This document shows, piece by piece, positions 4,104 to 22,999 of a DNA stretch of 64,000 nt. The stretch spans positions 26,837 through 90,836 of the forward strand of contig SCKQ01000001.1 of NCBI GenBank assembly GCA_004124535.1, read 5' to 3'. Source of the DNA: Fidelibacterota bacterium. GTDB taxonomy: Bacteria > Marinisomatota > Marinisomatia > Marinisomatales > TCS55. Positions within the stretch are counted from its first letter, which is position 1; each line of letters begins with the position of its first letter. Below the pieces are notes generated by a model. It made no database searches. It was given only the letters and a program-made list of their open reading frames with translations, and was not told the DNA's origin. The position numbers and the translations under genes are program-made.

Positions 4104-7100
4104 ATGGATTTGAGTCGGGAAACAATCCAAAAACACGTTGTTCAGGCAGAAAATAATGTTGTTGATGTTGAAGAATTATTTGCAATTGCTCATCAACTTC
4201 TAGAGGAAAAAACTGAACGTAAGACGGTTCATGCCTTCCTTAATCTAGGCCACCTGCCTGCTGTTAATTCCAGCATCGCGGAAAATAATCGAATCGATGA
4301 TTGGCTCTCACTTTTGATAGAGCTGATCGATAAATCGAAATATTCTTTTGGCCATCTTTTTTATAACCGTTCCCGAAAGTATAAGCATAAGCATCTATTT
4401 CATGAATTTCAAAAAGGCAAAGTTGTCAGCTATTCTTATGAAGATATTTGGGAGGAATTGTTAAAAGCAGCCGGCGCTTTAACTCATATTGAAAAATCAT
4501 ACCATGATAAAATTCGTATTGGTATTCTGACACCTAACTGCCTGCGTGGTGCTATTGTTGATCTAACATGTATATCCTTTCATTTTCCCGTTATACCCAT
4601 ACCGGCCAATGAGACTAAAAAAGATATTGATTTTATTATCAAGCACAGTGGTGTGACACACCTGTTTGTCGATAATGAATTGAAAACAGAAATAAATGAC
4701 ATCTTTCTTCCCTCTTCTAATGATTTAAACATTATTAATCTGAATAATAAAGATTGGCAAACCTTCATCGAACAAGGACAAAAATCTGATCCTCTCGAAG
4801 TCTTAAAGCGCATTGGACGTGTACGAATGGACGAAGTTGCCACCATCATGTACACATCCGGGACGACCGGAGAACCAAAGGGCATCACCTTCAGTCAAAG
4901 AAATATGATCGTGAAGCGTTTTGCCCGTGCACTGGCATTAACAAAATTTGGATCGCATGATTCATTTCTATGTTATCTCCCGTTATATCATACTTTTGGA
5001 CGCTTCCTTGAATTACAGGGCAGTATTTTTTGGGGCGCCTCATATGCATTCGCAGAGGATTCATCATACGATACCTTGCGAAAAAACTTTTTGTTCATTA
5101 AACCTACGGTATTAATAAGCGTGCCCAAACGCTGGACACAACTGTATGAAACCATCCAATCATTAGCTGCAGACCATTTAGATGAGGATCGCATCGTTCG
5201 CAAAGCGATTAAAAAGGTTACAGGTGGAAATTTAAAATGGGGTCTGTCTGCTGCTGGTTATCTTGATCCAGATATTTTCCAGTTCTTTCAAAACAATGAT
5301 ATACAATTATTGAGTGGGTATGGAATGACCGAAGCGACAGGCGGAATCACCCTGACCTCCCCAGACGAATATGTCGTTGATTCAGTCGGCCAGAAACTTC
5401 CGGGCATAGAATTACGTATTTCTGATGAAGGCGAATTACTGCTAAAAGGTCCGTATATATCTGCTTTTTATTACGCTGATCCCCTCACTCCCAGTACAGA
5501 TGATGGCTGGTTTCATACTGGGGATATTTTCATTGAAAAGGATGACCATTATTTTATAAAAGATCGCAAAAAAGAAATTTATAAGAACGCAGCCGGCCAA
5601 ACCATCACACCGCAAAAGATCGAAAATATGCTTTCAGAATTTGATGCAATACAATCAGCGTTCCTTGTGGGTGATAATATGGATTTCAATACCGTATTGA
5701 TATATCCCGATGAGGAGTATTTGAATACGCATATACCGAAAAGAGAACCAGCTAAAATAAGGTCAGCATTTAGCGCATTGATCCAATCAGTGAATGGTTT
5801 CCTTGCACCCTATGAACGTATCATTAATTTTGCCGTCATTCACAGAGATTTCAGTGCTGAACATGACGAACTAACCCAAAAAGGTACATTTAAACGTCAA
5901 AACATTTTGACGAACTGGTGGACTATAATCAAACCCATGTATGCACCTAACCAGGCAAATATTGAATCCAAAGGGAAAATTATTTCATTCCCTAATTGGC
6001 TGCTGAAAGCAATGAATATTGTTGCCCAGGATATTTCCTGGAGTGGCCGCTATTTGAAAATTGAAATTCTCAGCCGGAAATGCAAATGCCAATGGCAGGA
6101 TGATTCTCTACTTTTGGGAGAATTTGTTTACACTGTAAACAGTAAGAATTTTGATTTGGGAAGTATTTTACTGGATCCCAGGCTGTGGTTGGGAAACAGT
6201 GCTCTTGTCATCTTTTTTGGCGATATCATTTTTCAATTAATTCATTATAAAAAATCAAAAAATGTTGAATTACTGTCACGCAAAACCTCACAACCTATAC
6301 TGGAAGGTTCAATCCAACCTGAACTTGATGAATCAGCTTTTATTGAAGATCTTCATATTGGCACATTGCTGCTGATTCAAGCACAAAAGAATGGTTTAGA
6401 TTACTTTAAACATGTCTTTGATCAAAAAGACATTGATCTGAAAAAGATCGGTATCCAAGTACTTATCAGCATGTTAAATGATTCAGAACTGAAGTTCAGC
6501 CGAACAATTTTTAGTGCTTTAATTCCCTATTTACAAAAAGATCAATTTATTCCTCCATTAAAGACACTATTCAAACGGCATCAGCAGAATAAAAAACTAC
6601 GCTCATTCAACATTGAGTATGCCCAATTAGACGCATATCACATTGAAGAATTAATCACAGCATTAATAAACCAAAGATCGCAAGCAGAATTAACCAAGAC
6701 AGATCAAGTGTATGTACGTATGCTCATGAACTTGTCAATGTTATTGGCGCAAACTCACCCGTCACAATACATACTCATAAGACATGAACTTACCTGTTGG
6801 AAATTGCTTTCATCAACAGAAACATTAAGCCAAACTGCAGCCAATTGCATCACATCGGCGACTAAACAGTTTAAGGAAATGATCGGAGAAGTCGATATTA
6901 AGAGTGTTGATCCTGAAACAGGTCGTGAATATTCCTGGGTAGATATTCTGCAGTTTGACAATGTTATTTCACCTAATGAACAAGCATACATACTGAATTT
7001 ATTTCAATCTCACCCTATTGCCAGAGAGGCCATATTTATCCTCACTGGTTACAGGCAACTGCATCTGGAAAACATCCAGAAAAAAGGGGTTTGGATCACA

Positions 7101-8639
7101 CCCTTAAACACGAATCTGCCTATCCAGCAATATCGTATCCTTACGACCCTGCAAGATGGAAATGCCTATAATTTCATGCTATCCCATTTACCAGAATCCA
7201 CAGCAGATGAAATAACAAATATGAGTGAATGGCAGATTGTAAAGAGCACCGGGTTAAACTCTTCAAGGGTTACGAATGATTTTCTTTGTTCCTATCCAGA
7301 TTCTGGAATCATTATATCAGACTTCGAAACCAAGGGAAATGTAGATTCATATTTACGGTTACATGAACATGAATTAAGCAATCCAAAACTCCGTGACCGG
7401 TGGGATATGCGCTGGCTGCATTTTGGATGGAGTGCATTACAGGGCTATATCAACCATTGGATGCTGACCCATTTTCAATATTCAATACCAAACCCTGCAA
7501 TTAAAAATGTAATTATATCTGAATACGACAATTCAACCAATGTCCGTATCATTCAATCTTTTTATCAAGAAACCGTCAAGTCCAATTTGGATTTCATTAC
7601 CACTCTTTTTAAGGAATTAATTATCGAGACTGAAAAAAAATTCACTGGACTGAACCATGTTCTCAATTGGGAAATTGTATTTACATGTATTCAGGAAGCT
7701 GCAGGAAAGGAAAAAGGATTAGAAATCTTGAATAAACTCGCAAATGAGATTCAAGATAAAGCTATACATGAATTAAATCAGTCTCAAATACACGAATATA
7801 TTGCAGAGGTGGAAGCCTATGGTTATATCCCAAAACCCGTTATCTTTGCTGCATTGCGATTTCAAAGATGGATGGATCTGAACCCCAATGCCACAATTGA
7901 AGCACGATGTGATATTTTACAGGAGTTGTATAATAATTATAGGCTGCATACCATTTATACAACCCATCCTGGAGTACGACTGCGCTACTTTTTACTGACG
8001 TGTTTTATAGATCATGAATCTTTTGTAGCTAAAAGATTATTTAAACTTTCATCCCAACTCACTCATCATGAAATTACAATCACTGAATTAGAAACCAATA
8101 TTCATGCATTGGTAAATGGCCCGGATTGTTCAAATGAAGATGCTTATTTCCTCACACGATTAATTTACCAGCATGTGGATGCAGCAGATTATGCTGAGTT
8201 GATCACCAGAGCCTCTGGGCAAAAGAAATTAGATCTAGCAGTGAATGTGAAAAATAAGGATGGCAAAATTTTTACGATCAGACCGCCCTTTAAACCCAAG
8301 GAGATTGCCAATTTTCATGATCTACTGCTTTCCAATGATCTGCCGGCTCAATTCCGAGAAGAACATGATTTTCTTATCATGTTTTCAGCCAATAAAACAC
8401 AGGCGGGCGGAGTATTCTGGAAAATGATCGATGAGCACACTGCTCACCTTGAAAAAATCGCCATTCATGAAAAATATTTAAGGAGTGGACTTGGTGATTT
8501 GTTAATGAAAGAAATGATGCAGCGTGTGAAAATTTCTGGAGCAACCCACTTAACTATCGGTTTTATGAAAACGGAATTCTTTAAACGATTTAGTTTTAAA
8601 ACAGATGAATCTTTTGCCGGACTGGTAAAAGAATTATAA
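4104..8639 (+). CDS. Acyl-CoA synthetase / helical region / GNAT acetyltransferase fusion
   Basis: A 1511-residue protein. Residues ~70-625 form an AMP-dependent acyl-CoA synthetase of the long-chain type: P-loop YTSGTTGEPKG at 250-260, YGMTEATGG at 406-414, HTGDIF with Asp474, and KDRKKEIYK with Asp487, the usual adenylation signature. Residues ~630-1390 match nothing I recognise; they look mostly alpha-helical, like a repeat or scaffold region, with a few Trp/Tyr-rich stretches. The last ~110 residues resemble a GNAT acetyltransferase, with the acetyl-CoA loop RSGLGD at 1460-1465 and a typical FFKRFSF ending. An adenylating enzyme joined to an acetyltransferase suggests control by lysine acylation, or acyl transfer, but this is inference. 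The start ATG has no clear ribosome site. The stop is one base from that of the convergent oxidase operon. Confidence 0.8.
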   Translation: MDLSRETIQKHVVQAENNVVDVEELFAIAHQLLEEKTERKTVHAFLNLGHLPAVNSSIAENNRIDDWLSLLIELIDKSKYSFGHLFYNRSRKYKHKHLFHEFQKGKVVSYSYEDIWEELLKAAGALTHIEKSYHDKIRIGILTPNCLRGAIVDLTCISFHFPVIPIPANETKKDIDFIIKHSGVTHLFVDNELKTEINDIFLPSSNDLNIINLNNKDWQTFIEQGQKSDPLEVLKRIGRVRMDEVATIMYTSGTTGEPKGITFSQRNMIVKRFARALALTKFGSHDSFLCYLPLYHTFGRFLELQGSIFWGASYAFAEDSSYDTLRKNFLFIKPTVLISVPKRWTQLYETIQSLAADHLDEDRIVRKAIKKVTGGNLKWGLSAAGYLDPDIFQFFQNNDIQLLSGYGMTEATGGITLTSPDEYVVDSVGQKLPGIELRISDEGELLLKGPYISAFYYADPLTPSTDDGWFHTGDIFIEKDDHYFIKDRKKEIYKNAAGQTITPQKIENMLSEFDAIQSAFLVGDNMDFNTVLIYPDEEYLNTHIPKREPAKIRSAFSALIQSVNGFLAPYERIINFAVIHRDFSAEHDELTQKGTFKRQNILTNWWTIIKPMYAPNQANIESKGKIISFPNWLLKAMNIVAQDISWSGRYLKIEILSRKCKCQWQDDSLLLGEFVYTVNSKNFDLGSILLDPRLWLGNSALVIFFGDIIFQLIHYKKSKNVELLSRKTSQPILEGSIQPELDESAFIEDLHIGTLLLIQAQKNGLDYFKHVFDQKDIDLKKIGIQVLISMLNDSELKFSRTIFSALIPYLQKDQFIPPLKTLFKRHQQNKKLRSFNIEYAQLDAYHIEELITALINQRSQAELTKTDQVYVRMLMNLSMLLAQTHPSQYILIRHELTCWKLLSSTETLSQTAANCITSATKQFKEMIGEVDIKSVDPETGREYSWVDILQFDNVISPNEQAYILNLFQSHPIAREAIFILTGYRQLHLENIQKKGVWITPLNTNLPIQQYRILTTLQDGNAYNFMLSHLPESTADEITNMSEWQIVKSTGLNSSRVTNDFLCSYPDSGIIISDFETKGNVDSYLRLHEHELSNPKLRDRWDMRWLHFGWSALQGYINHWMLTHFQYSIPNPAIKNVIISEYDNSTNVRIIQSFYQETVKSNLDFITTLFKELIIETEKKFTGLNHVLNWEIVFTCIQEAAGKEKGLEILNKLANEIQDKAIHELNQSQIHEYIAEVEAYGYIPKPVIFAALRFQRWMDLNPNATIEARCDILQELYNNYRLHTIYTTHPGVRLRYFLLTCFIDHESFVAKRLFKLSSQLTHHEITITELETNIHALVNGPDCSNEDAYFLTRLIYQHVDAADYAELITRASGQKKLDLAVNVKNKDGKIFTIRPPFKPKEIANFHDLLLSNDLPAQFREEHDFLIMFSANKTQAGGVFWKMIDEHTAHLEKIAIHEKYLRSGLGDLLMKEMMQRVKISGATHLTIGFMKTEFFKRFSFKTDESFAGLVKEL

Positions 8640-9170: not shown

Positions 9171-9746
9171 TCAGCTTTCTCGGTTCAATCTGGCAATATC
9201 GCGCTTCAGTTTTTTAACTTCTTCAGATTCAGTACCAGTATAGTATCCTCTAATATTCATGTTCCTATCTATCAAAGCAAATTTAGTACTGTGGAATACA
9301 ATTTCTTCTATATCTCCCATCTTAAACCCATTAGTAATAATATCTTGAATATCTTCATAAGGCGCAGTTAAGAAATGCCATTGTGACCTGTCAGCCTTGA
9401 ACCGTTCAGCATAAACGGCTAATATTTCAGGCGAATCATAATCTGGGTTGACAGTGTATGTAACAGTATGAATATCACTCTTATCCAGGAATGTTCTATG
9501 AATATCAGCCATTTCTGTACTCATGATTGGACAAGGACCGCCACAGGTTGTGAAAATAAAATCAGCTACCCAGATATTCCCAGTTAGGTTATCTGTTCCA
9601 AAAGGCTCACCTTTCGAATTTGTCATTTCAAACTGGGGAATACTGCCAAAGACAGGCAGTGGTTTGGATTTTGTAACCCACCACAGGGTAGCAATAACAA
9701 CACCAACAATAATATAAATAATGAAGCGTTTCCGTTGTGAAATCAT
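9171..9746 (-). CDS. sco1: SCO1/SenC family copper chaperone
   Basis: A 191-residue protein with a single N-terminal membrane anchor (about residues 9-24) and a thioredoxin-like periplasmic domain. The copper site of the SCO family is present: CGGPC with Cys68 and Cys72, plus His152 in a VFHSTKFALID context. SCO proteins deliver copper to, or reduce, the CuA centre of cytochrome oxidase subunit II, which is encoded three genes upstream. Its start overlaps the ctaB stop by four bases (ATGA), so translation is probably coupled. Length is typical for the family. Confidence 0.93.
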   Translation of the reverse strand: MISQRKRFIIYIIVGVVIATLWWVTKSKPLPVFGSIPQFEMTNSKGEPFGTDNLTGNIWVADFIFTTCGGPCPIMSTEMADIHRTFLDKSDIHTVTYTVNPDYDSPEILAVYAERFKADRSQWHFLTAPYEDIQDIITNGFKMGDIEEIVFHSTKFALIDRNMNIRGYYTGTESEEVKKLKRDIARLNRES

Positions 9747-10624
9747 AACACTTTGTCAACAACAATAAGAATCAATAAAAGCGGTAAATATATTACCGAT
9801 GATTTTAACAGCAGCCTTGCACTTTGAACTGATTTATCCCGAGCCAGTGGTAAAGCCGAAATAAGAAATATGCCCGTTAAAAAGATGACGCCCACGGCAT
9901 ATATCAGCCCAGAACTACCTTCTACATAGGGTAAGACTGAAATGGGTACCAACAATGTTAAATGCCAAAAAATTTGCCGCATAGTGCGTTTACCATCCGG
10001 TTCAATCACTGGCAGCATTTTAAAACTTGCTCGGGCATAATCGTCCTTGCACATCCAGGCAATGGCATAAAAATGGGGATGCTGCCAAAAAAACATGATG
10101 GCAAATAAGATCCATGCACCTGTTTCAATATTGCCTGTTGCAGCTGCCCAGCCACCCATGGGGGGCAATGCGCCGGGGATTGAACCTATGGATGTATTCA
10201 GCCATGTAATTTTTTTTAATGGTGTATAAACCAATACATAGAGAAAGGCTGTAAGAATGGAAAGAAAACCGGTCAGGAGATTTATTTGAGTAACAAGTAT
10301 GATTGTTCCTATAAGTACCAGTATAATACCAAATACTAATGCATTTCCCGGAGCAATTAATCCACTTGGAATTGGACGATTTTTTGTTCTTTGCATCAAT
10401 TTATCCGCATCCCGCTCCAAATAATGATTTAATGCACCGGCCCCCCCTGCTGTCAACGCTGTTCCCAACAATGTGATGAAAAGCCTTAAAAATGAATCAA
10501 TTCCATCGCCCCCCAGATAATAACCTAATACTGTGGTAACAAGCACCAATGACATGATATTCGGCTTTAATAGCTCTATGTAAGCGGCAGTGCTGGACTT
10601 GGCGGGGTGTTTTTTAAGACGCAT
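9743..10624 (-). CDS. ctaB: Protoheme IX farnesyltransferase
   Basis: A 293-residue UbiA-family prenyltransferase with about nine membrane helices. The first Asp-rich motif is visible as NHYLERDADKLMQRT followed by KNRPIPSG; the second, near residue 190, is represented by CKDDYARASFKMLP, which is characteristic of heme O synthase. It converts heme b to heme O, the precursor of the heme A used by the aa3 oxidase encoded in the same operon. It sits between ctaA (two-base gap) and sco (four-base overlap). Confidence 0.95.
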   Translation of the reverse strand: MRLKKHPAKSSTAAYIELLKPNIMSLVLVTTVLGYYLGGDGIDSFLRLFITLLGTALTAGGAGALNHYLERDADKLMQRTKNRPIPSGLIAPGNALVFGIILVLIGTIILVTQINLLTGFLSILTAFLYVLVYTPLKKITWLNTSIGSIPGALPPMGGWAAATGNIETGAWILFAIMFFWQHPHFYAIAWMCKDDYARASFKMLPVIEPDGKRTMRQIFWHLTLLVPISVLPYVEGSSGLIYAVGVIFLTGIFLISALPLARDKSVQSARLLLKSSVIYLPLLLILIVVDKVL

Positions 10625-10626
10625 GA

Positions 10627-11601
10627 TTATTTCCGCAGAAATGCTATATCTGACAGGCGTAAAAATAAGATGAAACTAAGTCCCATAACAGCAGCACCAT
10701 TCATAACATGAAAACTGGTAATAAACGGTCCTTTAGCTGTCCAAATGGTCAATGCACCTAACAAAATCTGCAGGAAAACAAAAACATAAATAGCGAAAAC
10801 GTTTTTTTGAATCTTTTTTGTATATGCACTTTTATTTTGATGCAAACGATAACCCATAAAGATCGTCAAGGTAAAAATAACAAACGCTCCAAAACGATGT
10901 AGAAAATGAATCAACACTTGCAGTATGGATACTTCAGGGTAATCCATGTAAAAACGCCAGTCATTGATCGTAGTCAACATTTTTTCATTAAAGATGGGCA
11001 GCCATTGTCCAGCCATTGTTGGAAAGTCATAAATAGCCAATCCAGATTCTGTATGTCTCATCCACGCTCCCAGGATCAATTGAATATATACAGCAATGAA
11101 CAGTGACAGAACAATTGTACGATTTGAGTCAGGTTTACTATTTCTATCAGAAAATTCTTTTGAAAGAGAATAGGCAATTAAAATGATGACTAAAAAAAAT
11201 GTTTGTGCAGTGATACCATGGATCATGGAAATAGCCGTTGGTAGAAAAAACATGACTGTTAGCCCGCCGAGCAGTCCTTGAGTAATCACCAGAATTAATG
11301 ATACATACCCAAGCTTCTTTACATTAACTCGTGTTTCAGAAAAACTTAGCCAAATTGAGAGACCTAAAGTCATTGCCCCAACAATGGTGGCTAACATGCG
11401 ATGGCTGTGTTCATAAAAAATACCGCCAACCATATCCGACCAAGGGAAAGCAAACATTTGAAATCCATAGGTGGTTGGCCAGTCAGGAACGGAGAGGCCC
11501 ACTTCAAAACTTTTTACCAGTGCACCAACAAAAATCAGAAAAAGCGTTGCCAAGACGGTTAGTTTTGAAAAACGTCTTAACCAGACGTTTGATGTGTTCA
11601 T
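10627..11601 (-). CDS. ctaA: Heme A synthase (COX15/CtaA)
   Basis: A 324-residue polytopic membrane protein with eight predicted helices in two related halves, as in COX15/CtaA. Visible signatures are GLSVPDWPTTYG near the N-terminus, the EHSHRMLA heme-ligand helix, LGAWMRHTESGLAIYDFP in the second half, and a HFLHRFGAF helix. It oxidises the C8 methyl group of heme O to make heme A. It is followed directly by ctaB, which makes the substrate. Confidence 0.94.
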   Translation of the reverse strand: MNTSNVWLRRFSKLTVLATLFLIFVGALVKSFEVGLSVPDWPTTYGFQMFAFPWSDMVGGIFYEHSHRMLATIVGAMTLGLSIWLSFSETRVNVKKLGYVSLILVITQGLLGGLTVMFFLPTAISMIHGITAQTFFLVIILIAYSLSKEFSDRNSKPDSNRTIVLSLFIAVYIQLILGAWMRHTESGLAIYDFPTMAGQWLPIFNEKMLTTINDWRFYMDYPEVSILQVLIHFLHRFGAFVIFTLTIFMGYRLHQNKSAYTKKIQKNVFAIYVFVFLQILLGALTIWTAKGPFITSFHVMNGAAVMGLSFILFLRLSDIAFLRK

Positions 11602-11626: not shown

Positions 11627-12466
11627 CTACCAGTCGTCGTCACCCCAGTCATCCTCATCGTCCTCTTCTTCGATGTATGCTTTTTGTTCTTCAATCCAAT
11701 CAGCGTAACCCTGATCATCGTGAATTGTCAAAAAGCCGCGCATTCGATAATGACCTAATCCGCAGAGCTGAGCACATGCGATTTCAAGACCCTTACCTTC
11801 GCGAGGAGTTCCAACCATTTCTGACAAAAATTCTTCAGATGTCATCGTTGCTTCAAAATGCACAGGAATGACCATTCCCGGTATAGCATCTTGTTTGACG
11901 CGCAACTCAGGCAGTGCAAAACTGTGGATGACGTCTTTGGAGGTGAGATCGAGACGAACTTGTGTATCTACTGGTATATGCAGCTGATTAATCGTAACAA
12001 AGTCATCGGCACCGCCTGTGGAAGAGCGATCAAGTCCAATAGGGTTTTCCACTTCATCAACAAGATTTGGACGTGTCTGGCCAAAAATACCGTCTTCACC
12101 TGGATAGTGGATATTCCAGGTAAACTGCTGGGCAACCACCCGGGCATGAACTGCTCCGCTATTGACTTCTGGGACATCATTAATGCGACTGGCCCAGATT
12201 GGTAAAGCAAAACCCACCAGCAGCACCATTTCTATAACTGCAACAACAACTTCTAAAACAGATGATAAATGTGATTTCACGCCTTCATGATCGGCATTTG
12301 GATTCTTGGAACTTCTAAATTTGACCAAAGAAACTATAAAGAAAACTCCCCAGCCTATAAATAGTACCAACATGAGCCAGTGGGTTAGAATGATCACTTC
12401 ATCGATGGCTGGACCATCCACAGACATATTGATCGGTAAACCTAGATAATGAAGAATTTCAGCCAT
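11627..12466 (-). CDS. coxB: Cytochrome c oxidase subunit II
   Basis: A 279-residue subunit with two N-terminal membrane helices and a periplasmic cupredoxin domain carrying the CuA site: CAQLCGLGHYRM, i.e. CxxxCxxxHxxM. The segment ARVVAQQFTWNIHYPGEDG is the usual start of the soluble domain. There is no fused cytochrome c domain, so a separate electron donor is needed; the octaheme cytochrome nearby is a candidate. The C-terminus carries an unusual acidic tail of about 14 residues ending DDDW, resembling the end of that octaheme protein. Subunit II lies downstream of subunits I, III and IV, not in the common position in front of coxA. Confidence 0.95.
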   Translation of the reverse strand: MAEILHYLGLPINMSVDGPAIDEVIILTHWLMLVLFIGWGVFFIVSLVKFRSSKNPNADHEGVKSHLSSVLEVVVAVIEMVLLVGFALPIWASRINDVPEVNSGAVHARVVAQQFTWNIHYPGEDGIFGQTRPNLVDEVENPIGLDRSSTGGADDFVTINQLHIPVDTQVRLDLTSKDVIHSFALPELRVKQDAIPGMVIPVHFEATMTSEEFLSEMVGTPREGKGLEIACAQLCGLGHYRMRGFLTIHDDQGYADWIEEQKAYIEEEDDEDDWGDDDW

Positions 12467-12709: not shown

Positions 12710-12900
12710 TATAATGTTTTGAATTTCTTATAGACTTTCAAGCCGTAAATGATTAACCCTCCGCTAACCATCAGGGAAACAATCGCTATTGCCGTCGACA
12801 TGCCATTTTCATCCAATTGCAATTCATACATGGCGAACCACACTGTCAATATGATTGACATCATAATGAAAAACAGATGAAACGTTTTTAGCGATATCAT
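12709..12900 (-). CDS. Small two-helix membrane protein (cox operon)
   Basis: A 63-residue protein beginning MISLKTFHLF, with two membrane helices (about residues 5-24 and 32-53) and a basic C-terminus (KVYKKFKTL). I chose the ATG at 12900 because it overlaps the subunit IV stop as ATGA; an upstream TTG at 12915 in the same frame is less likely. It is coupled to its neighbours on both sides. No family was recognised; a small structural or assembly subunit of the oxidase is the natural guess. Confidence 0.7.
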   Translation of the reverse strand: MISLKTFHLFFIMMSIILTVWFAMYELQLDENGMSTAIAIVSLMVSGGLIIYGLKVYKKFKTL

Positions 12901-13202
12901 GAAATGTTTACCCAATCAAAAAAAGAAATAGTGGGAATAAACATGAGTACAAAAAAGAAAGCAAGAGTTAACATCAATATCCAGGTAATGAGTGCTTTTT
13001 CGGAAATTAAGTGCATAAAATAACTAGCCACCAGAGAACCTTTAATCGAGGCGATGGTTAAGGCCAGAAAAATGGCTTCACCTGTACTCAAATTCAAATA
13101 GGAAGCTGCTACCGTAACCATAGTCAGCACCGCTAATACAGCAAAAACAATCATGTAAACTTTTACATGACTTTTGATATCATTCATACTGTGTTCACTC
13201 AT
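12897..13202 (-). CDS. Cytochrome c oxidase subunit IV (prokaryotic type)
   Basis: A 101-residue protein with three membrane helices, matching the caa3/cbo-type subunit IV (COX4_pro) family: an N-terminal SHVKVYMIVFAVLAVLTM helix, the KGSLVASYFMHLISE segment, and a final helix ending in FFDWVNIS. The start at 13202 is preferred over the frame's upstream ATG at 13247, because AGGAGG lies four bases in front of it and it leaves eight bases after the coxC stop. It stabilises the catalytic core of the oxidase. Confidence 0.88.
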   Translation of the reverse strand: MSEHSMNDIKSHVKVYMIVFAVLAVLTMVTVAASYLNLSTGEAIFLALTIASIKGSLVASYFMHLISEKALITWILMLTLAFFFVLMFIPTISFFDWVNIS

Positions 13203-13210
13203 AATGCCTC

Positions 13211-13807
13211 CTACAGCAAATAAAGAACCGGAAAAAGGAAGATCCATACCAAGTCAACAAAGTGCCAATATAGACCGGCAATCTCAATCCTGTTTGTGAA
13301 ATGTTCAGGTTCCGTTGTCCACATTTTAGATCCCGATCCTAAAAAATACCCATTGACGATCATTCCGCCAATGATATGTAAGCCGTGAAGACCGGTCAGC
13401 GTAAAATAAATAGACATGAACGTATTTGTACCGGGAAAAATACCATGATGAAACTTGGCTGTATATTCAAAATACTTGATCACCAGAAAGCCAAGAGCAC
13501 ACAACAACGTTAAACCCATGTACAGTTTGTATTTCTTGAAATCATTCATTTTCAGAGAAGCCCAAGACATGACCATGGTTACACTGGATGAAATCAGGAT
13601 CAGCGTATTCAATGTTGCTAAAGGTATATTTAATTCCTGACCCCATTCATGAAAAGCGCCAGCCGGGGCACCCAAACGCAGAAAAACGTAGGCAGAAAAC
13701 AAACCCCCAAAAAGCATGACTTCTGAAGCTAGGAATAACCAAATTCCTAATTTGGAATTAATTAAACCAGTATCTGGACGTTCTTCAATTGTATATGGTA
13801 TTTCCAT
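13211..13807 (-). CDS. coxC: Cytochrome c oxidase subunit III
   Basis: A 198-residue protein of the heme-copper oxidase subunit III family (short, five-helix form). Characteristic segments are KLGIWLFLASEVMLFGGLF near the N-terminus with its conserved Glu, YFTLTGLHGLHIIGG in the middle, and YWHFVDLVWIFLFPVLYL at the C-terminus. It has no catalytic metal but binds lipid and stabilises subunit I. It starts eight bases after the coxA stop. Confidence 0.95.
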   Translation of the reverse strand: MEIPYTIEERPDTGLINSKLGIWLFLASEVMLFGGLFSAYVFLRLGAPAGAFHEWGQELNIPLATLNTLILISSSVTMVMSWASLKMNDFKKYKLYMGLTLLCALGFLVIKYFEYTAKFHHGIFPGTNTFMSIYFTLTGLHGLHIIGGMIVNGYFLGSGSKMWTTEPEHFTNRIEIAGLYWHFVDLVWIFLFPVLYLL

Positions 13808-13815
13808 AAAAAATT

Positions 13816-15534
13816 TTACCCTTTTTTCGGTTCTGTTTGCGGTGTGTAATCTCGCTTCCGTCCCGGAACGCTGTATTCATAAGGATCGCGATGTACCTCT
13901 GGAATTACTTCAAAATTCACATGGGGTAAGGGCGGAGATGGCGCTGTCCATTCCAAGGTAGTGGATTCCCAAGGATTATTATCTACTTTTTCGCCATTTT
14001 TTATGCTGTAAAGAACATTAATAATAAATGGGATCTGGGATAGTCCCAACAACCATGCTGATACAGACATAAATTCATTCCATTGCAACACACCGGATGC
14101 ATGGGCATATTGCAAACCGCCATCCCATAAACGGCGGGATACACCGGCAAGTCCCTGAATTAACATGGGCATAAAAATGAGATTCATGAAGATCAGGGAA
14201 GGCCAGAAGTGGAGTTTGCCAAGTTTTTCGCTTAATTTTCGCCCTGTTATTTTTGGATACCAATAATAAATTCCGGCAAATAATCCAAAAATTGTTCCCG
14301 GAGCGACTATATAGTGAAAGTGGCCAATCACATAATACGTATCATGAAGGTGGATATCCGCAGCTGCAAAACCCAAAGGGAGTCCAGTCAGTCCGCCAAT
14401 TCCGAACATCGGCAGAAACGCCAAGGCAAATAACATGGGTGTATTAAACCTGATCGAACTGCCCCAGAGTGAAATAAAAAAGGCGGAAAGGATAATGACC
14501 GAAGGAATTGAGATGATCATAGTAGTCAACTGGAAAAATGCACTCATGGTACTACCCATTCCCGTAATAAACATGTGGTGTGCCCATACAATAAAAGACA
14601 TAAAACCCAAAAAAATTACAGAATAGACCATTGATTTATATCCCCATAACGGTTTACGGGAATTATTAGCTATGACTTCTGCCACGATGCCCATTGCCGG
14701 TAGTATCAAGACATAGACTTCCGGATGAGCAAGAAACCAGAATAAGTGCTGCCATAACAGTGGACTTCCTCCACCACTTACATTTAATAGTTCACCGGAG
14801 ACAACTAAACCACTGGGTAGAAAAAAGCTTGTTCCGGCAACCCTGTCCATAAGTTGCAGAACGGCGGCTGCTTCCAAGGGAGGAAATGCAAGAACCAAAA
14901 GAAATGCAGTGACAAACTGTGACCAAACAAAGAATGGCAATCGCATCCAGGTCAGCCCTGGTGCGCGTAGCTGAATAATGGTTGTAATAAAATTGATGGA
15001 ACCCAGCAATGATGATGTAATCAGGAACAACATACCTATAAGCCAGAATGTTTGACCCACTTCTATATCAGCCAGTGGCGGATAGGATGTCCAGCCGGAA
15101 CGCGCTGCCCCTTCTGGTGAAAAGAAACTGGTCAACATAATGACACCGCCAACGAAATAAGACCAGTAACTGGCCATATTCAGTTTTGGGAAAGCCATGT
15201 CCGGTGCTCCAATTTGAAGGGGTACAAAATAGTTTCCGAAGGCACCAACAGCCAGGGGGACAATGCCCAAAAAGATCATGATGGTTCCGTGCATCGCACC
15301 AAGGGAATTATAAATTTCGGGAAGGAGAATACCACCATCACCCAGTAATTTGCCTACAACGGGGACAGCCTCCTCCGGGTAAGCAAGCTGCCAGCGCATG
15401 ACCAGCATCAGGCAAAATCCAAAAAACAGAAATAGTAAACTGGTTATACCATACTGCAGTCCAATAATCTTATGATCAACGGAGAATATGTATTTTCGCC
15501 AGAAACCCTCTTGGTGGTGCTGATCTGTACTAAT
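13816..15534 (-). CDS. coxA: Cytochrome c oxidase subunit I, probable AUU start
   Basis: The catalytic heme a / heme a3-CuB subunit. Signatures include the FWFLAHPEVYVLILPAMG segment (CuB His and cross-linked Tyr), a HHMF pair, and HDTYYVIGHFHYIV for the a/a3 histidines. An ATG start at 15408 would give only 530 residues and cut the first helix. Reading further upstream in frame recovers a canonical N-terminus (MSTDQHHQEGFWRKYIF, then SVDHKIIGLQYG) with no ATG, GTG or TTG before the in-frame stop at 15571-15573. The only well-placed start is ATT at 15532-15534, six bases after AAAGGAG, giving 572 residues. Gene identity is certain; the start codon is inferred, and a sequencing error is the alternative. 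Confidence 0.93.
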   Translation of the reverse strand: MSTDQHHQEGFWRKYIFSVDHKIIGLQYGITSLLFLFFGFCLMLVMRWQLAYPEEAVPVVGKLLGDGGILLPEIYNSLGAMHGTIMIFLGIVPLAVGAFGNYFVPLQIGAPDMAFPKLNMASYWSYFVGGVIMLTSFFSPEGAARSGWTSYPPLADIEVGQTFWLIGMLFLITSSLLGSINFITTIIQLRAPGLTWMRLPFFVWSQFVTAFLLVLAFPPLEAAAVLQLMDRVAGTSFFLPSGLVVSGELLNVSGGGSPLLWQHLFWFLAHPEVYVLILPAMGIVAEVIANNSRKPLWGYKSMVYSVIFLGFMSFIVWAHHMFITGMGSTMSAFFQLTTMIISIPSVIILSAFFISLWGSSIRFNTPMLFALAFLPMFGIGGLTGLPLGFAAADIHLHDTYYVIGHFHYIVAPGTIFGLFAGIYYWYPKITGRKLSEKLGKLHFWPSLIFMNLIFMPMLIQGLAGVSRRLWDGGLQYAHASGVLQWNEFMSVSAWLLGLSQIPFIINVLYSIKNGEKVDNNPWESTTLEWTAPSPPLPHVNFEVIPEVHRDPYEYSVPGRKRDYTPQTEPKKG

Positions 15535-15540
15535 AACGAA

Positions 15541-15547
15541 CTCCTTT
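15541..15547 (-). promoter_or_regulatory. Ribosome binding site of coxA that supports an AUU start
   Basis: On the minus strand AAAGGAG lies six bases before an ATT codon at 15534-15532. There is no other start codon in this frame nearby, so this site fixes the likely coxA start. Confidence 0.7.
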
Positions 15548-15741
15548 GGGATGTTTAATATATATCTTATTTACTAATTTTACAGACGGGGAATATATTA
15601 AAAAGAGAGTAATGTATACAACGAAATCAGTTGAAATCTTATACATAAAAACTTGAAATCGTTATTCATTTTCTAATAGTAAATCATCTAAATTGCGCGG
15701 CTAAAAAAAACAAAAAATTGATAGACAGGAGAAATCAAATA
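15548..15741. promoter_or_regulatory. Divergent AT-rich intergenic region between coxA and the cupredoxin gene
   Basis: About 190 AT-rich bases separate two divergent genes and must carry both promoters. On the plus strand, TTGAAA at 15653-15658 followed by TAGTAA at 15677-15682 is a weak sigma70-like candidate. AGGAGA at 15727-15732 is the ribosome site for the gene starting at 15742. No clear operator was found. Confidence 0.4.
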
Positions 15742-16440
15742 ATGAAAATATTTATTTCGACAGTGATCATTGCCGGAATGGTCACAGCTTCCTTTGCGGG
15801 AGACCTAACTGGTACTGTCACTTATGAAGGAAAAACCCCGAAGAAAAAAACATTACGCATGGATTCTGATCCAGTATGCAGCGCTGCACATCAGGATGCA
15901 GTATATACCGAAAGTTTCATTGTAGATGAAAATGGCAATTTAGCAAATGTTATTGTTTATTTAAAAAGTGCCAGTTCTGATTCTGCACCTTCAGTAGCAG
16001 CAGTTATCGATCAAAATGGATGTATGTATACACCCCATGTTTTTGGTATGCAAGCTGGACAGGAATTAAAAATTCTCAATAGTGATCCCACTATGCACAA
16101 TATTCATGGATTACCAAAACTGAACAAAGAATTCAACTTTGGTATGCCTAAGACAGTAAAAGAAAAATCAGTTACTTTTCATAAAGCAGAAGATGTTTTT
16201 GTTATTAAGTGCGACGTACATCCCTGGATGAAATCCTATGTACAGGTTTTTGACCATCCCTATTTTGCCGTAACGGGAACTGATGGAAAGTATTCTATTC
16301 CCGGAATTTCCGCGGGTGAATATGAAGTAGTAGCTTGGCAGGAAAAATTTGGATCCAAAAGAACAATGGTCCAAACAGTTACGATTGGTGATGATTCAAC
16401 CACTTTGGACTTCAAATTTATCAAGCCTAGTAAGAAATAA
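15742..16440 (+). CDS. Periplasmic cupredoxin-like copper protein
   Basis: A 232-residue protein with a signal peptide (residues 1-19, ...VTASFAG). The middle resembles a cupredoxin fold with possible type-1 copper ligands: His119 or His122 (TMHNIHG), then Cys157, His160 and Met163 in KCDVHPWMKSY. The C-terminal ~60 residues (FAVTGTDGKYSIPGISAGEY) resemble a carboxypeptidase-regulatory/CarbopepD beta-sandwich. The start at 15742 follows AGGAGA; a TTG eight codons upstream is less likely. It is divergent from coxA, so an electron carrier or copper handler for the oxidase is plausible but unproven. A terminator follows. Confidence 0.8.
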   Translation: MKIFISTVIIAGMVTASFAGDLTGTVTYEGKTPKKKTLRMDSDPVCSAAHQDAVYTESFIVDENGNLANVIVYLKSASSDSAPSVAAVIDQNGCMYTPHVFGMQAGQELKILNSDPTMHNIHGLPKLNKEFNFGMPKTVKEKSVTFHKAEDVFVIKCDVHPWMKSYVQVFDHPYFAVTGTDGKYSIPGISAGEYEVVAWQEKFGSKRTMVQTVTIGDDSTTLDFKFIKPSKK

Positions 16441-16514: not shown

Positions 16515-19500
16515 TTACCAATCGTCTTCTTCAATGATGAAGTCATAACCAACATCTTCTAAATGGGCTCTAACAATCAGTGAAACATCCTCTTTTCCTT
16601 TCAATCCCCAGAGATAATCCACTAACCCTTGATATAATTTGGTAGAGTCTCCATTCATGTTAGCCACTGATTTACCCCAATTGGTCAAGACATCTGCTAC
16701 AGGCTCTTCCGTGGGAATATAAGGTGCAGGCATTTTAGTGCCGGGCATTATATCCTGTGGATTACTGAAAAATTCTAATAACCAATCTGGTCGTAAACGA
16801 TTCTTTGTTAAAACAAGGTTCGGGGCCCAGGTTAAAGCAGCTTGTTTGGGTTTCTGGTTGCCATAGAAATGACAATTTGTGCAGGCACCAAGTTCCTGGA
16901 TGACGTTGCCTGCTTTATAAGAGTCAGAATTAATATTCATGGAATGGGGCAATTCATAAGCAAGGGCTTGTCCGTCTTTTTTCTGAAAATATTCAATCAC
17001 GGTATTCCATTCCTCATCGGTAAAATCAAAACTGGGCATGCGCACCTGCAAATGCGGTCTGATCATCGTAATGTCTTTAAACCAATTTAATAACCATTCA
17101 GGCTGGGTCTTACGGCCCTGTGAATCCAGTAAAGGTGGTGAAAAACTTTGGACGATACTCATATCTTCGGCATTGGTTTCATCGGCAATCTCACGCAGCC
17201 ATTCTGCTGTTGCAGGCCAGATGGCTCCGCCATCGCCATCTATCTTATGACAGCCTTTACAATTATTGGTTTGTATAAGCTGTTCGCCTGCTTCTAAAGC
17301 CAGTTGTTTTGCATTTACTTCGGGCAATTTACCTGCTGGTATTTCATCTTTTACAGAACCCATGATAACCGTGACCAATGCATCTATCTCATGCTGTGTT
17401 AAACCATAATCAGGCATACGCAATTTATCCAGAGGCCGTTTTTCCATGGATTTCAATGATCCATCTTCCTGTGGAATCATATCAAAGATTCGCGGATCAT
17501 CGAGCTTTTGTGCAAACCAATCCCAGCGGGTATGAGGCAGATTATCATGGTGAAAACCAAAATCCAGTTTGGTAATCAGTTTACTCCCTTCAATTGTTAA
17601 ACTTGTACCAATTGGTTTCACTTTTTCAAATCCGGGAATATTATGACAGCCAAAACAACCATATTGTCCTATGAGGCGTTGTCCATTATAATCCAATTTC
17701 TCATCTATCGTTATTCCAGCAAGCTTGGCATCTACCTGCTCCTTACGAAGTTGCTGGCTTAAAAATCCAGCCGCAATATCATCAAGGATCTCTTCATTCA
17801 CTCCAGGAATTTCTTGCGCATCAAATTCATTATTTTTATCCTGTGTAAGATACGCAGCTATGTCAGCTGCTTCCTGTCTAGTCAAACGCAGGTTTGGCAT
17901 TTTCGTTTCCGGATGGAAAGAAGCAGGATCCCTGACCCAATTATATACCCATTGAGCAGTTGATTTAGATCCCAATCCAATTAAGTTTGGACCTTGCTCA
18001 CGTCTTAAGGTTTGGATGGAGGTTGGTTCTTCAGCTACAGCATCGGGTTGAATCTCATGGCAGCCCATACAACCAACAGATGCCACTAAAAGCTGTCCAT
18101 TTTCTGCATCCGCATTCCGTGGCAGTTTATCCATAGGGAAAGATTCACTCTTATTAAATAAATATGCAGTGATCGAATGAATTTCCTGTTCAGTACGAAT
18201 TAAAGAATTTGGGTCGCTATTGTTTGTTACATTAAAGAAATGGGGCATCCACGTATTGTGACGAAAATCCCTGGGGCTGTTGATCCATTTCCAAGTCCAA
18301 TCTTTGGTCGTTTTCGAAGCGACCTTTGCCAAATTGGGTCCCGTTTTGGGCTTACCTTCCCAGCGGTCCATCTTATGGCACCCAAAGCATCCGGTGCGCT
18401 CAACAAGGGCCATGCCAAGAGAAAGCGTTTTCGCTCCATCTATGGGCATATTTCCGCTATGGCATTTGAAGCAGCCTGCTTCCATATTCTGTTTGGTAAA
18501 CATAGGGTTGTCCCAATGGTGCATGCGGTGCCAATCATATTTTTCTTCCCATTCATGGGCTTGCTCTAGACTAGAGGGTGAGTGAGCAGTTGTATTAAAA
18601 CCTGTACCTCTGCCTCGACCTGCATGGCATGTTGTACAGCCAAATTCACTCAAAGGGTGTGGAGAATTCGCTCCCACCATTTGATCTAAATTAGGATGTG
18701 TTGTATAAGGCTGGGGAGAATCTTCAAAGTCCTTATTATCGATACCCATGTGACAGGTCATGCAGCGATCAACCTTTGGCATACCTAAATACACAAGGTC
18801 TTCTTCAATGTCCTTTACTACAACCTGTTTTACCTCATAATAAGGATCAATAAAATCCAGAACAGGAAGATCACGGACCACATTGGCGATCTTGTTAGAA
18901 AATGACATTTTTTCCGGATCAGTTTTAGCCAGTTTCCTAACTGCAAGATTGCGTTTCCGACTGATGGAACTTAATTCATCTTTATAGGATTTGTTTTCAG
19001 CATATAGATCGGCTAAACGATTTTGCAGAATTTCCAGCTTCTTTTCAACTGTCTCTAGTTCCAACTTAAACCCAGAAGTAAGTGCATCGAGACGTTTAAG
19101 GTTTTTTTCTGCAGTTTCTACATTTCCATTTCCGTGACGAGCTTGATCTGCGGTATATTTTGCTACATCAGATTCAGCTTTGGCAAATTGATGATTCTGG
19201 TTCATACGATAGCGTTCTGCGTCAACTTCCTTGATCTTTCCGTTTAGTTCATCTATCTCATCGACCTTGCCTTGCAATTTCTTTTTAGCTTCCGACAAAC
19301 GCTCCTGCAACGTATTATATTCGTCATTGCTCTCAAGATTACTATTCAGTTCAGCAAGATTATTGCTGATTTTTTCTATTTCAACACTGCGGAATTCCTT
19401 TTGAAATTTTTTCCATGGACGCTGATAATCATCAGCAAAAGTAAGAATGAAAATACCAGCAAAAACCAGACTCGATAGAGCGAACCAACGATTCAGCTTG

Positions 19501-19535
19501 AGTATATTATAATATCGTTCTTGTTGGTCAATCAT
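16515..19535 (-). CDS. Membrane-anchored octaheme cytochrome c with long coiled coil
   Basis: A 1006-residue protein. A signal anchor lies at about residues 17-33. Residues ~50-205 form a long, charged coiled coil. Then come eight CxxCH heme-c sites at residues 258-262, 300-304, 355-359, 383-387, 489-493, 627-631, 759-763 and 885-889. Each of the later sites is followed by cytochrome-c-like modules with MPxFxxT/MPNLRLT-type Met ligand motifs, so several mono-heme cytochrome domains seem to be strung together. It is the last gene of the Rieske/cytochrome b operon, so it most likely replaces cytochrome c1 and passes electrons to the aa3 oxidase. The C-terminus ends IIEEDDW, like the CoxB tail. 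The domain count is seen directly; electron flow is inferred. Confidence 0.88.
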   Translation of the reverse strand: MIDQQERYYNILKLNRWFALSSLVFAGIFILTFADDYQRPWKKFQKEFRSVEIEKISNNLAELNSNLESNDEYNTLQERLSEAKKKLQGKVDEIDELNGKIKEVDAERYRMNQNHQFAKAESDVAKYTADQARHGNGNVETAEKNLKRLDALTSGFKLELETVEKKLEILQNRLADLYAENKSYKDELSSISRKRNLAVRKLAKTDPEKMSFSNKIANVVRDLPVLDFIDPYYEVKQVVVKDIEEDLVYLGMPKVDRCMTCHMGIDNKDFEDSPQPYTTHPNLDQMVGANSPHPLSEFGCTTCHAGRGRGTGFNTTAHSPSSLEQAHEWEEKYDWHRMHHWDNPMFTKQNMEAGCFKCHSGNMPIDGAKTLSLGMALVERTGCFGCHKMDRWEGKPKTGPNLAKVASKTTKDWTWKWINSPRDFRHNTWMPHFFNVTNNSDPNSLIRTEQEIHSITAYLFNKSESFPMDKLPRNADAENGQLLVASVGCMGCHEIQPDAVAEEPTSIQTLRREQGPNLIGLGSKSTAQWVYNWVRDPASFHPETKMPNLRLTRQEAADIAAYLTQDKNNEFDAQEIPGVNEEILDDIAAGFLSQQLRKEQVDAKLAGITIDEKLDYNGQRLIGQYGCFGCHNIPGFEKVKPIGTSLTIEGSKLITKLDFGFHHDNLPHTRWDWFAQKLDDPRIFDMIPQEDGSLKSMEKRPLDKLRMPDYGLTQHEIDALVTVIMGSVKDEIPAGKLPEVNAKQLALEAGEQLIQTNNCKGCHKIDGDGGAIWPATAEWLREIADETNAEDMSIVQSFSPPLLDSQGRKTQPEWLLNWFKDITMIRPHLQVRMPSFDFTDEEWNTVIEYFQKKDGQALAYELPHSMNINSDSYKAGNVIQELGACTNCHFYGNQKPKQAALTWAPNLVLTKNRLRPDWLLEFFSNPQDIMPGTKMPAPYIPTEEPVADVLTNWGKSVANMNGDSTKLYQGLVDYLWGLKGKEDVSLIVRAHLEDVGYDFIIEEDDW

Positions 19536-19552: not shown

Positions 19553-20671
19553 CTAGAAATTGAAGAAATATTCTGGTATGGCTATGATGTATTTCAAATT
19601 GAATATCCACCGCAGATACATTTTAATCGGTAATGTTAATGCAGTCAGGATCAAAACGATGAAAAGTGAATAAACAAAAGGATTCAACCGTTTATATATA
19701 TTCTTACATACTGTTTTGGCCAATAATGGCGGCAGAATGAGAAAATATCCAGCTAAAAGAAGGATGCCCCAAATTTCTCTAACTAAAATACTATCAGGGA
19801 GCCCTGTGCTAAACCATTTAATATAAATATATTCAGATAAATTAATGTTGGTTAGTGCTTCAATTTTATGGATATCCCAGTATTCGAACGGACCAAAGAA
19901 ATTCCAGTTTGGTCCTCTGAGAAACGTTCCAACTATGATCAGCATATTCCACATTACCAGCCAGCCGAACATGAAAAGAGCAATGGATAATTTCCTGTTT
20001 TTAAAACTATAATATCCAGAACCAGCTGGTTCATTATCGATAAAAGGGAAAGCCATCAAACCCACTATGATTAAGGTGGGTAAAACAACGCCAGCCATCC
20101 AGGGATCAAAATATACCAGCATTTCCTGCAGGCCTAAGAAATACCATGGTGCTTTTGCAGGATTAGGAGATTCGGAGGGGTTCGCTGGTTCTTCGATAGG
20201 CGCTTGTAAACTAATGGACCAGATCAGCAGAAAAGCAGAACATAAAATCAGAGCAATAAATTCAACATACACAAGATCCGGCCAAACTAGCACTTTATCA
20301 TTTGGTGCGTCGTATTGTTCATCAATCGATTCGCCGCGTTCTAATTTGGCATCGTTTTCGTATGCCTGGTGCATCGATAACCATGTAAAAAAGTAAACAA
20401 GAAAAATCAATCCGGAGATAGGCACATTATCAGGTTTCAGAACAATGGATTTGAAATCAGGATCCGTTATGCCAAATATGAAAAAAGCGGCCATGATAAT
20501 TGCCGCAATGAGCATACCTTTGCCAGACCATAACACATATAATTTTAACCGGCGGTTCCATTTATCAAACCAGTTATTGATGGGAAAAATAAAGAAAAAG
20601 ATAATCAGTGTCGACGTAAAAAGAATCGTCGGATTCGAGATTGTGTCGATTAAATGCTTAAAATCTTCCAT
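19553..20671 (-). CDS. Cytochrome b C-terminal subunit (subunit IV-like, extended)
   Basis: A 372-residue membrane protein. Its middle contains the cytochrome b C-terminal signature: PNPAKAPWYFLGLQEML, which carries the quinol-site region equivalent to PEWY, followed by a VGLMAFPFIDN segment. Two extra helices precede this and several follow, so it is much longer than plastid subunit IV (~160 residues). With the 256-residue neighbour it makes a split b6f-like cytochrome b. The gene starts two bases after the end of the N-terminal subunit gene. Confidence 0.88.
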   Translation of the reverse strand: MEDFKHLIDTISNPTILFTSTLIIFFFIFPINNWFDKWNRRLKLYVLWSGKGMLIAAIIMAAFFIFGITDPDFKSIVLKPDNVPISGLIFLVYFFTWLSMHQAYENDAKLERGESIDEQYDAPNDKVLVWPDLVYVEFIALILCSAFLLIWSISLQAPIEEPANPSESPNPAKAPWYFLGLQEMLVYFDPWMAGVVLPTLIIVGLMAFPFIDNEPAGSGYYSFKNRKLSIALFMFGWLVMWNMLIIVGTFLRGPNWNFFGPFEYWDIHKIEALTNINLSEYIYIKWFSTGLPDSILVREIWGILLLAGYFLILPPLLAKTVCKNIYKRLNPFVYSLFIVLILTALTLPIKMYLRWIFNLKYIIAIPEYFFNF

Positions 20672-22916: not shown

Positions 22917-22999
22917 TGCCGCGGAAAGGAGTCGAACCTTCACACCTAATGGGCACCAGATCCTAAATCTGGCGTGTCTACCAATTCCACCACCGCGGC
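22917..22999 (-). tRNA. tRNA-Leu (anticodon TAG)
   Basis: Read on the minus strand, this 83-base sequence has a GCCGCGG/CCGCGGC acceptor stem, a D arm with GGTGGAATTGGTAGACAC, an anticodon stem CCAGA/TCTGG around loop TTTAGGA (anticodon TAG), a long leucine-type variable arm and a T arm with GGTTCGACTCC. The discriminator base is A. CCA is not encoded. It is the first element of the transcript that continues into the HEAT-repeat and bc-complex genes. Confidence 0.95.

Follow-up and report, generated by a model that had tools for sequence, protein, structure and literature searches.

A putative AUU start codon on the cytochrome c oxidase gene coxA of a Fidelibacterota bacterium, and apparent AUU or AUC starts in some relatives

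Bacterial genes with non-NUG starts that have been characterised experimentally are reported to be few (PMC5472188). The gene for initiation factor IF3, infC, starts at ATT in E. coli and at ATC in Streptomyces and is autoregulated by IF3, while IF3 represses Streptomyces sigR, whose start is GTC (PMC5472188). When IF3 increases in vitro, less full-length product, as a fraction, is obtained from AUU and the CAU anticodon (PMC10158994). Two S. aureus genes with extended Shine-Dalgarno sites, cvfC1 (AUU) and ccpN (AUA), produce about 10% of the AUG output in poor medium, ccpN reaching up to 30% in rich medium (PMC13009471). Here, we analyse a 64,000-nucleotide stretch of the genome of an uncultured marine Fidelibacterota bacterium (contig SCKQ01000001.1; hereafter the window), in which coxA, the gene for subunit I of cytochrome c oxidase, probably starts at AUU.

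The coxA locus shares traits with each of these systems. Like infC, it combines an AUH start (H being A, C or U) with a Shine-Dalgarno site, the context being near-alike in infC of three relatives (G002, G005 and G007). However, coxA encodes a respiratory enzyme subunit and infC a translation factor, so that no feedback loop is proposed for coxA, and the AUH start of coxA is not universal, AUG, GUG and UUG being commoner in relatives. Like sigR, coxA has a non-canonical start outside infC, a strong ribosome site and a history of misannotation by gene callers, but the sigR start is GTC (GTT in 2 of 34 species) and not AUU, it is conserved in one genus whereas AUH starts of coxA occur in separate lineages, and an IF3 effect was shown for sigR and is expected by analogy for coxA (PMC5472188). 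The AUH starts of Staphylococcus/Bacillus ccpN (AUA) and S. aureus cvfC1 (AUU) likewise come with extended Shine-Dalgarno sites; ccpN is a metabolic repressor and cvfC1 a small protein, in contrast to the core membrane enzyme considered here, and their starts were mapped by ribosome profiling and reporters, that of coxA by sequence comparison (PMC13009471). Finally, Borrelia pncA is also a metabolic enzyme gene with an AUU start and a truncated protein in databases, but it concerns one species and has genetic, biochemical and structural support (PMC13398362). Non-canonical starts are an already known kind, to which coxA is a new addition as far as the open-licence literature shows: among open-licence papers, we found no report of a non-canonical start on a bacterial coxA. 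What is unusual here is that the gene encodes a core membrane enzyme, that such starts recur in one phylum and that coxA starts are weak in general there.

The probable coxA start site in the window

The features of the start site are as follows.

13816..15534, minus strand: coxA (ctaD), cytochrome c oxidase subunit I, 572 amino acids counted from ATT; matches TIGR02891 CtaD_CoxA and Paracoccus CoxA
15532..15534, minus strand: ATT (AUU), probable coxA start codon (residue 1), from alignment to the starts of relatives
15541..15547, minus strand: AAAGGAG, Shine-Dalgarno site by pairing energy, with a six-base spacer to ATT
15571..15573, minus strand: TAA, in-frame stop closing the coxA frame upstream
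15406..15408, minus strand: first in-frame ATG, coxA residue 43 and gene-caller start (the database protein P0012 begins here)

We propose, with a probability of about 0.85, that coxA is translated from the AUU at 15534-15532, preceded by a strong Shine-Dalgarno site, and that initiation there is weak and open to rejection by IF3. An AUU start had been suggested in an earlier note on this DNA, and its description of the site holds: AAAGGAG stands six bases before ATT, at 15547-15541, and the coxA frame contains no ATG, GTG or TTG from the TAA at 15573-15571 down to ATG 15408. Read from ATT, the protein is ISTDQHHQEGFWRKYIFSVDHKIIGLQYGITSLLFLFFGFCLMLVMRW, and its phmmer match to Paracoccus CoxA (1ar1 chain A; E 7.8e-128) begins at residue 4, which bears out the canonical CoxA N-terminus that the same note had recognised upstream of ATG 15408. 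The best family is TIGR02891 CtaD_CoxA, at 588.9 bits and thus under the curated cut-off of 670.75; by these matches, the product is identified as a haem-copper oxidase subunit I of the aa3 type.

The nearest genome compared (G001) shares 20% of sampled 31-letter words with the window, and its CoxA (L001) is 95% identical to that of the window. Its start region reads AAAGGAG-TGCGTT-ATT-AGT-ACA-GAT, with the same ATT, the same site and the same six-base spacer; the frame is closed eight codons before ATT, and no usual start is found from that stop to the conserved block. Between the two genomes, seven of codons 2-43 differ, four of them synonymously, and the bases that differ are one at first, one at second and five at third codon positions; among codons 44-570, 80 of the changed codons are synonymous and 24 non-synonymous. 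The coxA gene is intact and, from this pattern, looks to be under purifying selection from ATT onward. In an alignment of wider scope, the window's ATT AGT ACA GAT lines up with ATG AGC ACT GAC of L022 and similar rows, and the ATT itself with ATT in G001, ATC in three genomes (G017, G022 and G050) and ATG, GTG or TTG in other relatives. Thus the AUU start suggested in the earlier note gains from homology that reaches back to ATT, from the ATT of G001 and from the recurrence of AUU/AUC in other lineages, and its position appears established as well as comparison can establish it.

Start codons of coxA across the phylum

The CoxA search covered four overlapping sets of 61, 40, 130 and 171 genomes, taken at progressively higher rank around G001; for the last set, the matches listed were used. 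Starts were read in 92 rows from the phylum, one of them that of the window; two duplicates (L118, L150) and a row cut by a contig end (L117) do not count among these. Left out of the 92 were partial matches without a start, paralogues whose identity was at most about 47%, a TTG-started paralogue in G130 (L275) and four short or fragmentary starts (G028 C21, G033 C63, G130 C134 and G130 C175). The labels were ATG in 44 rows, TTG in 25, GTG in 16, ATT in three (the window, L001 of G001 and L146 of G130), ATC in three (L011 of G022, L012 of G017 and L030 of G050) and CTG in one (L122 of G126). ATG, GTG and TTG labels followed a rule, the usual start codon closest to the aligned position being taken, and L020 (ATT GTG) was scored as GTG. 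All six AUU/AUC rows read Ile-Ser-Thr from the start, and ATG rows such as L022 read Met-Ser-Thr. For the three ATT rows there is no rival usual start, and in the 93% complete genome G017 (ATC) the gene is the single coxA match.

A tree was built by a quick method, with no bootstrap, from fuller sequences, with three extra rows (all ATG) and with five short rows omitted. The AUU/AUC label requires at least four changes on it, four being forced by starred branches, against an average of 5.9 for shuffled labels, and the count cannot tell gain from loss. The placement of the G130 row is unsure because its branch is long. Outside these Marinimicrobia rows, 74 of 76 homologues (L032, L034-L040, L042-L052 and L054-L110) have a usual start in frame and the other two are cut by contig ends. 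This control is weak, because translation does not necessarily begin at such an in-frame codon. L031, L033, L041 and L053, named Candidatus Neomarinimicrobiota/Marinimicrobia, are filed under Fidelibacterota.

The starts of coxA are weak in general across the rows of the phylum. They are not ATG in 48 of 92 rows, versus 5 of 68 for coxC, the second gene of the oxidase cluster (ATG in 63 of 68; Fisher P 7.7e-10, overstated because the rows are related). With the same kind of rule, the subunit IV gene starts with ATG in 43 of 51 rows and the gene divergent from coxA in 30 of 37, and no row without a usual start was found among the coxC, subunit IV and divergent genes.

Two further observations concern CoxA in these genomes. 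The apparent CTG start of L122 is preceded by ATA, and one TGA is reported inside the matched stretch. In addition, a group of longer CoxA paralogues (L289 of G130 C31, L294 of G002 C2, L290 and L291) has open frames of about 620-660 residues, with an insertion after about residue 60, just behind the first membrane helix.

Proposed initiation at AUU, IF3 and alternative readings

Pairing energies were computed with CACCUCCUUU as anti-Shine-Dalgarno tail, a sequence that was assumed since the 16S tail was not found. The AAAGGAG of the window pairs at -8.4 kcal/mol, and the mean coxA site pairs at -7.9 kcal/mol in the seven AUU, AUC and CUG rows, -8.2 in the 16 GTG rows, -6.6 in the 25 TTG rows and -4.0 in the 44 ATG rows. 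Weaker start codons of coxA are thus accompanied by stronger Shine-Dalgarno sites (AUU/AUC/CTG versus ATG rows, Mann-Whitney P 0.00017, a value again inflated by the relatedness of the rows). In these genomes, Shine-Dalgarno motifs are genuine although infrequent, as they precede the ATG starts of 147 of 642 genes, versus 43 of 642 at an upstream control position.

The translation apparatus of the relatives is consistent with discrimination at AUU. The IF3_C domain was found in 13 of 14 genomes, G001 included, and not in G050 (77% complete). By eye, none of the 13 infC 5' ends has a usual start before the conserved block; they start at ATC, or at ATA in G126. The infC context in G002, G005 and G007 is AAAGGAGTTCATA-ATC and that of the window coxA is AAAGGAGTTCGTT-ATT, a likeness that may reflect no more than a good ribosome site. 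An initiator-type tRNA-Met with a CAU anticodon was confirmed at 6 of 15 loci scanned, including those of G017 and G022, whose coxA appears to start at ATC; in the window itself none was seen. An AUU alongside CAU initiators in six relatives is the kind of start that IF3 disfavours.

Other genes of this kind were sought in two surveys. In the window and stretches of six genomes (about 1.19 million bases), 470 open reading frames (ORFs) had a homologue in another genome and 56 were flagged for homology before the first usual start. At least three homologues supported coxA in the window (7 of 7), in G017 (3 of 7) and in G022 (3 of 7), as well as one window ORF (index 29386, 3 of 4); for each of the remaining 52, support came from one or two homologues. 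The ORF of index 29386 is acyl-CoA dehydrogenase-like and its extension probably overlaps the preceding gene, and a TTG ahead of the ATC kept coxA of G050 from being flagged. The second survey, based on Shine-Dalgarno motifs, covered 54 ORFs of the window, 289 of G017 C21 and 58 in 60 kb of G050 C24. Its sensitivity is low: it missed the coxA gene of G017, which has a low-scoring site and a GTG nearby. In these partial genomes, the AUH starts with good support are those of coxA and infC, and further ones may exist. As a separate observation, in a 157-residue ORF of G002 C10 (L269, about 18950-19420, minus strand), CTG GAT ATT TTT AGT CAT aligns with the start ATG GAT ACA CTA AGC of its counterpart in G017, so that this further gene may start at CUG.

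A simple mechanism may be suggested from these data and the precedents. The strong AAAGGAG site, with its six-base spacer, would position the 30S subunit at the AUU, which the ordinary fMet-tRNA (anticodon CAU) would decode with a third-position mismatch, so that CoxA would still begin with methionine. Compared with AUG, initiation would be less efficient and, as at infC, subject to rejection by IF3, with the strong Shine-Dalgarno site partly offsetting the weak AUU. A reduced initiation rate has good precedent and is likely; IF3 discrimination at the AUU is expected by analogy, and conditional control of coxA by IF3 is a plausible hypothesis on the same grounds. The apparent AUU start and the similar ones in separate lineages suggest that CoxA is made at a deliberately weak, possibly adjustable rate.

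Several points weigh against this reading. By itself, the Shine-Dalgarno scan of the window would not exclude chance: among its 54 non-overlapping ORFs, a strong motif at working distance, between the upstream stop and the first usual start, precedes seven codons, one each of TTT, ATT, AGT, CAC, CCT, CTA and ACA, the coxA ATT being the sole ATT, ATC, ATA or CTG. The seven coxA labels other than ATG, GTG and TTG were assigned by hand. Rival starts exist in the ATC rows: a GTG six codons downstream of the ATC in L011 and L012, and in L030 a TTG four codons upstream, ahead of its own GGAGGAG, although no well-placed Shine-Dalgarno site is apparent for any of the three. The sites of L011 and L012 are moderate (-5.8), GTG-started genes have sites as strong as the AUU/AUC rows, and the AUU/AUC/CTG rows compared with all others together give a P of only 0.015, with related rows. 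Searches for the 16S tail pattern in 10 genomes, and for a conserved 16S pattern shortly before it in 13, gave no match. Lastly, the aligned start is ATG in G002, which belongs to the same genus as the window, and P0001, a database protein 97% identical overall to the window CoxA, begins VSNDSHHKENFLQ, its valine corresponding to GTG. The conservation of ATT and ribosome site that the earlier note had proposed to look for in related genomes therefore stands for G001, which has both, whereas the ATT is replaced in G002 and, by implication, in P0001, so that AUU is shown only within the window's own small clade. The first 13 residues of P0001 are unlike the window and like the L031 group, and its contig is 3,379 bases long; because of this L031-type N-terminus on a protein otherwise so close to that of the window, the contig may be recombinant or chimaeric. 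The AUU start nevertheless goes beyond chance because homologous starts align, the arrangement is the same in G001 and codons 2-43 substitute like coding sequence. As an observation apart, the 16S 3' end pattern was absent from searches of 13 Marinimicrobia genomes, even those reported 95-97% complete, and our guess is that rRNA operons are probably missing from these bins.

The alternative that survives best shares the AUU start and differs on its meaning. AUU would be a fixed low-efficiency start, tolerated or selected for the stoichiometry of oxidase subunits, the IF3 level being immaterial, and AUG, GUG, UUG, AUU and AUC would drift because the Shine-Dalgarno site carries initiation. We give it an even chance. 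It accommodates the change of start between close relatives (ATG in G002 versus ATT in the window), the excess of non-ATG starts on coxA over coxC and the pairing of weaker codons with stronger sites, and in Listeria, selected ATA/ATT starts are reported to alter stoichiometry (PMC13068326). It leaves the near-identical site of infC, the other AUH gene, unexplained, but this likeness could be general. Conversely, infC and coxA may form a small IF3-sensitive AUU/AUC set in several Marinimicrobia lineages, which coxA entered repeatedly and which would tie oxidase synthesis to the IF3:ribosome ratio, and hence to growth state; we regard this as a tentative, rather doubtful extension.

The other alternatives concern the start itself and are all very improbable. 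Translation from ATG 15408 (residue 43) would give the 530-residue protein that gene callers predict. Among the best 120 matches in a search of 5.8 billion predicted proteins, P0012, the most identical to the window CoxA (99%) and the representative of a 24-member cluster, is indeed 530 residues long and begins MLVMRWQ, at the codon corresponding to ATG 15408. P0030 (92% identical) is likewise shortened at its N-terminus; these are the two cut proteins of the 120, the other 118, P0001 among them, beginning with M or V at the usual place or a few residues from it. However, starting at ATG 15408 would lose residues 4-42, which align with Paracoccus CoxA and, by CoxA topology, comprise the larger part of the first membrane helix; the 16 bases before this ATG lack a Shine-Dalgarno motif, and codons 2-43 evolve as coding sequence. 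An initiation codon upstream of ATT is about as improbable: AUA 15570, AUA 15561 and AUC 15552 are in frame, but no Shine-Dalgarno motif stands ahead of any of them, and the frame of L011 has a stop two codons upstream of the aligned ATC.

Even less probable is a base or assembly error that turned a usual start of the window into ATT. The ATG of G002 and the GTG of P0001 would fit such an error. Against it, G001 is a separate genome whose coxA leader is 91% identical over 206 bases and has the same ATT and site, so that one error would have had to occur twice, and P0012, which is 99% identical yet not the window's own protein, is cut just where an unrecognised AUU predicts. Equally remote is a special initiator tRNA with an isoleucine anticodon reading AUU/AUC as a cognate start: the exact usual initiator motif is absent in G001 and G050, but both are 77% complete with motif variants that are not tRNA genes by ARAGORN, and G017 and G022, with ATC starts, carry the ordinary CAU initiator.

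If true, a recurrent AUU/AUC start on a core respiratory enzyme would add to the genes against which IF3 can discriminate and would suggest that oxidase supply is set at initiation. It would also show that gene callers can cut the N-terminus of CoxA in a marine phylum, and coxA of these relatives offers a test bed in which one gene is found with ATG, GTG, TTG, ATT and ATC.

The oxidase cluster, the coxA leader and other observations

In the window, coxA heads a cluster in which it is followed by subunit III-, IV- and II-like genes and by haem A and haem O synthase-like genes.

15742..16440, plus strand: divergent gene with ATG start, bounding the coxA leader; no NCBIfam match
15535..15741, minus strand: coxA leader and promoter region, between coxA and the divergent gene; compared with G001 over 206 bases
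13211..13807, minus strand: coxC-like subunit III gene, second of the cluster, ATG start; matches under curated cut-offs
12897..13247, minus strand: caa3-type oxidase subunit IV-like gene; TIGR02229 above cut-off
11627..12466, minus strand: coxB-like subunit II gene; TIGR02866, under cut-off
9746..11601, minus strand: haem A synthase-like gene (weak match, far under cut-off) and haem O synthase gene (TIGR01473 above cut-off)

A scan of 15400-15800 for sigma-70-like sites gave no match on the minus strand of the leader and three on the plus strand, a number near chance expectation. The sole Rfam match of the window is a tRNA at 22917-22999. As the leader has none, and its minimum-energy fold in the window is not that of the L001 leader, we do not propose a leader structure.

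Upstream of the cluster, the window encodes a cytochrome c-like protein of 1006 residues, which carries several haem motifs and whose N-terminal part resembles a coiled coil (16515-19535, minus strand), and a protein weakly like cytochrome b6f subunit IV (19553-20671, minus strand).

Finally, a conserved frame shared by two families of the order (L220 in G017 C21, about 6696-7690, minus strand; L239 in G050 C24, about 7578-8530, minus strand) reads ...LL(Y/W)GQ-TGA-x-x-TGA-TNPSLPVGTANSG. It has a signal-peptide-like start, two TGA codons at matching places and then a conserved body, with 21 database homologues and no Pfam label. The frame looks like a UxxU selenoprotein, and selB was above cut-off in all seven genomes searched.
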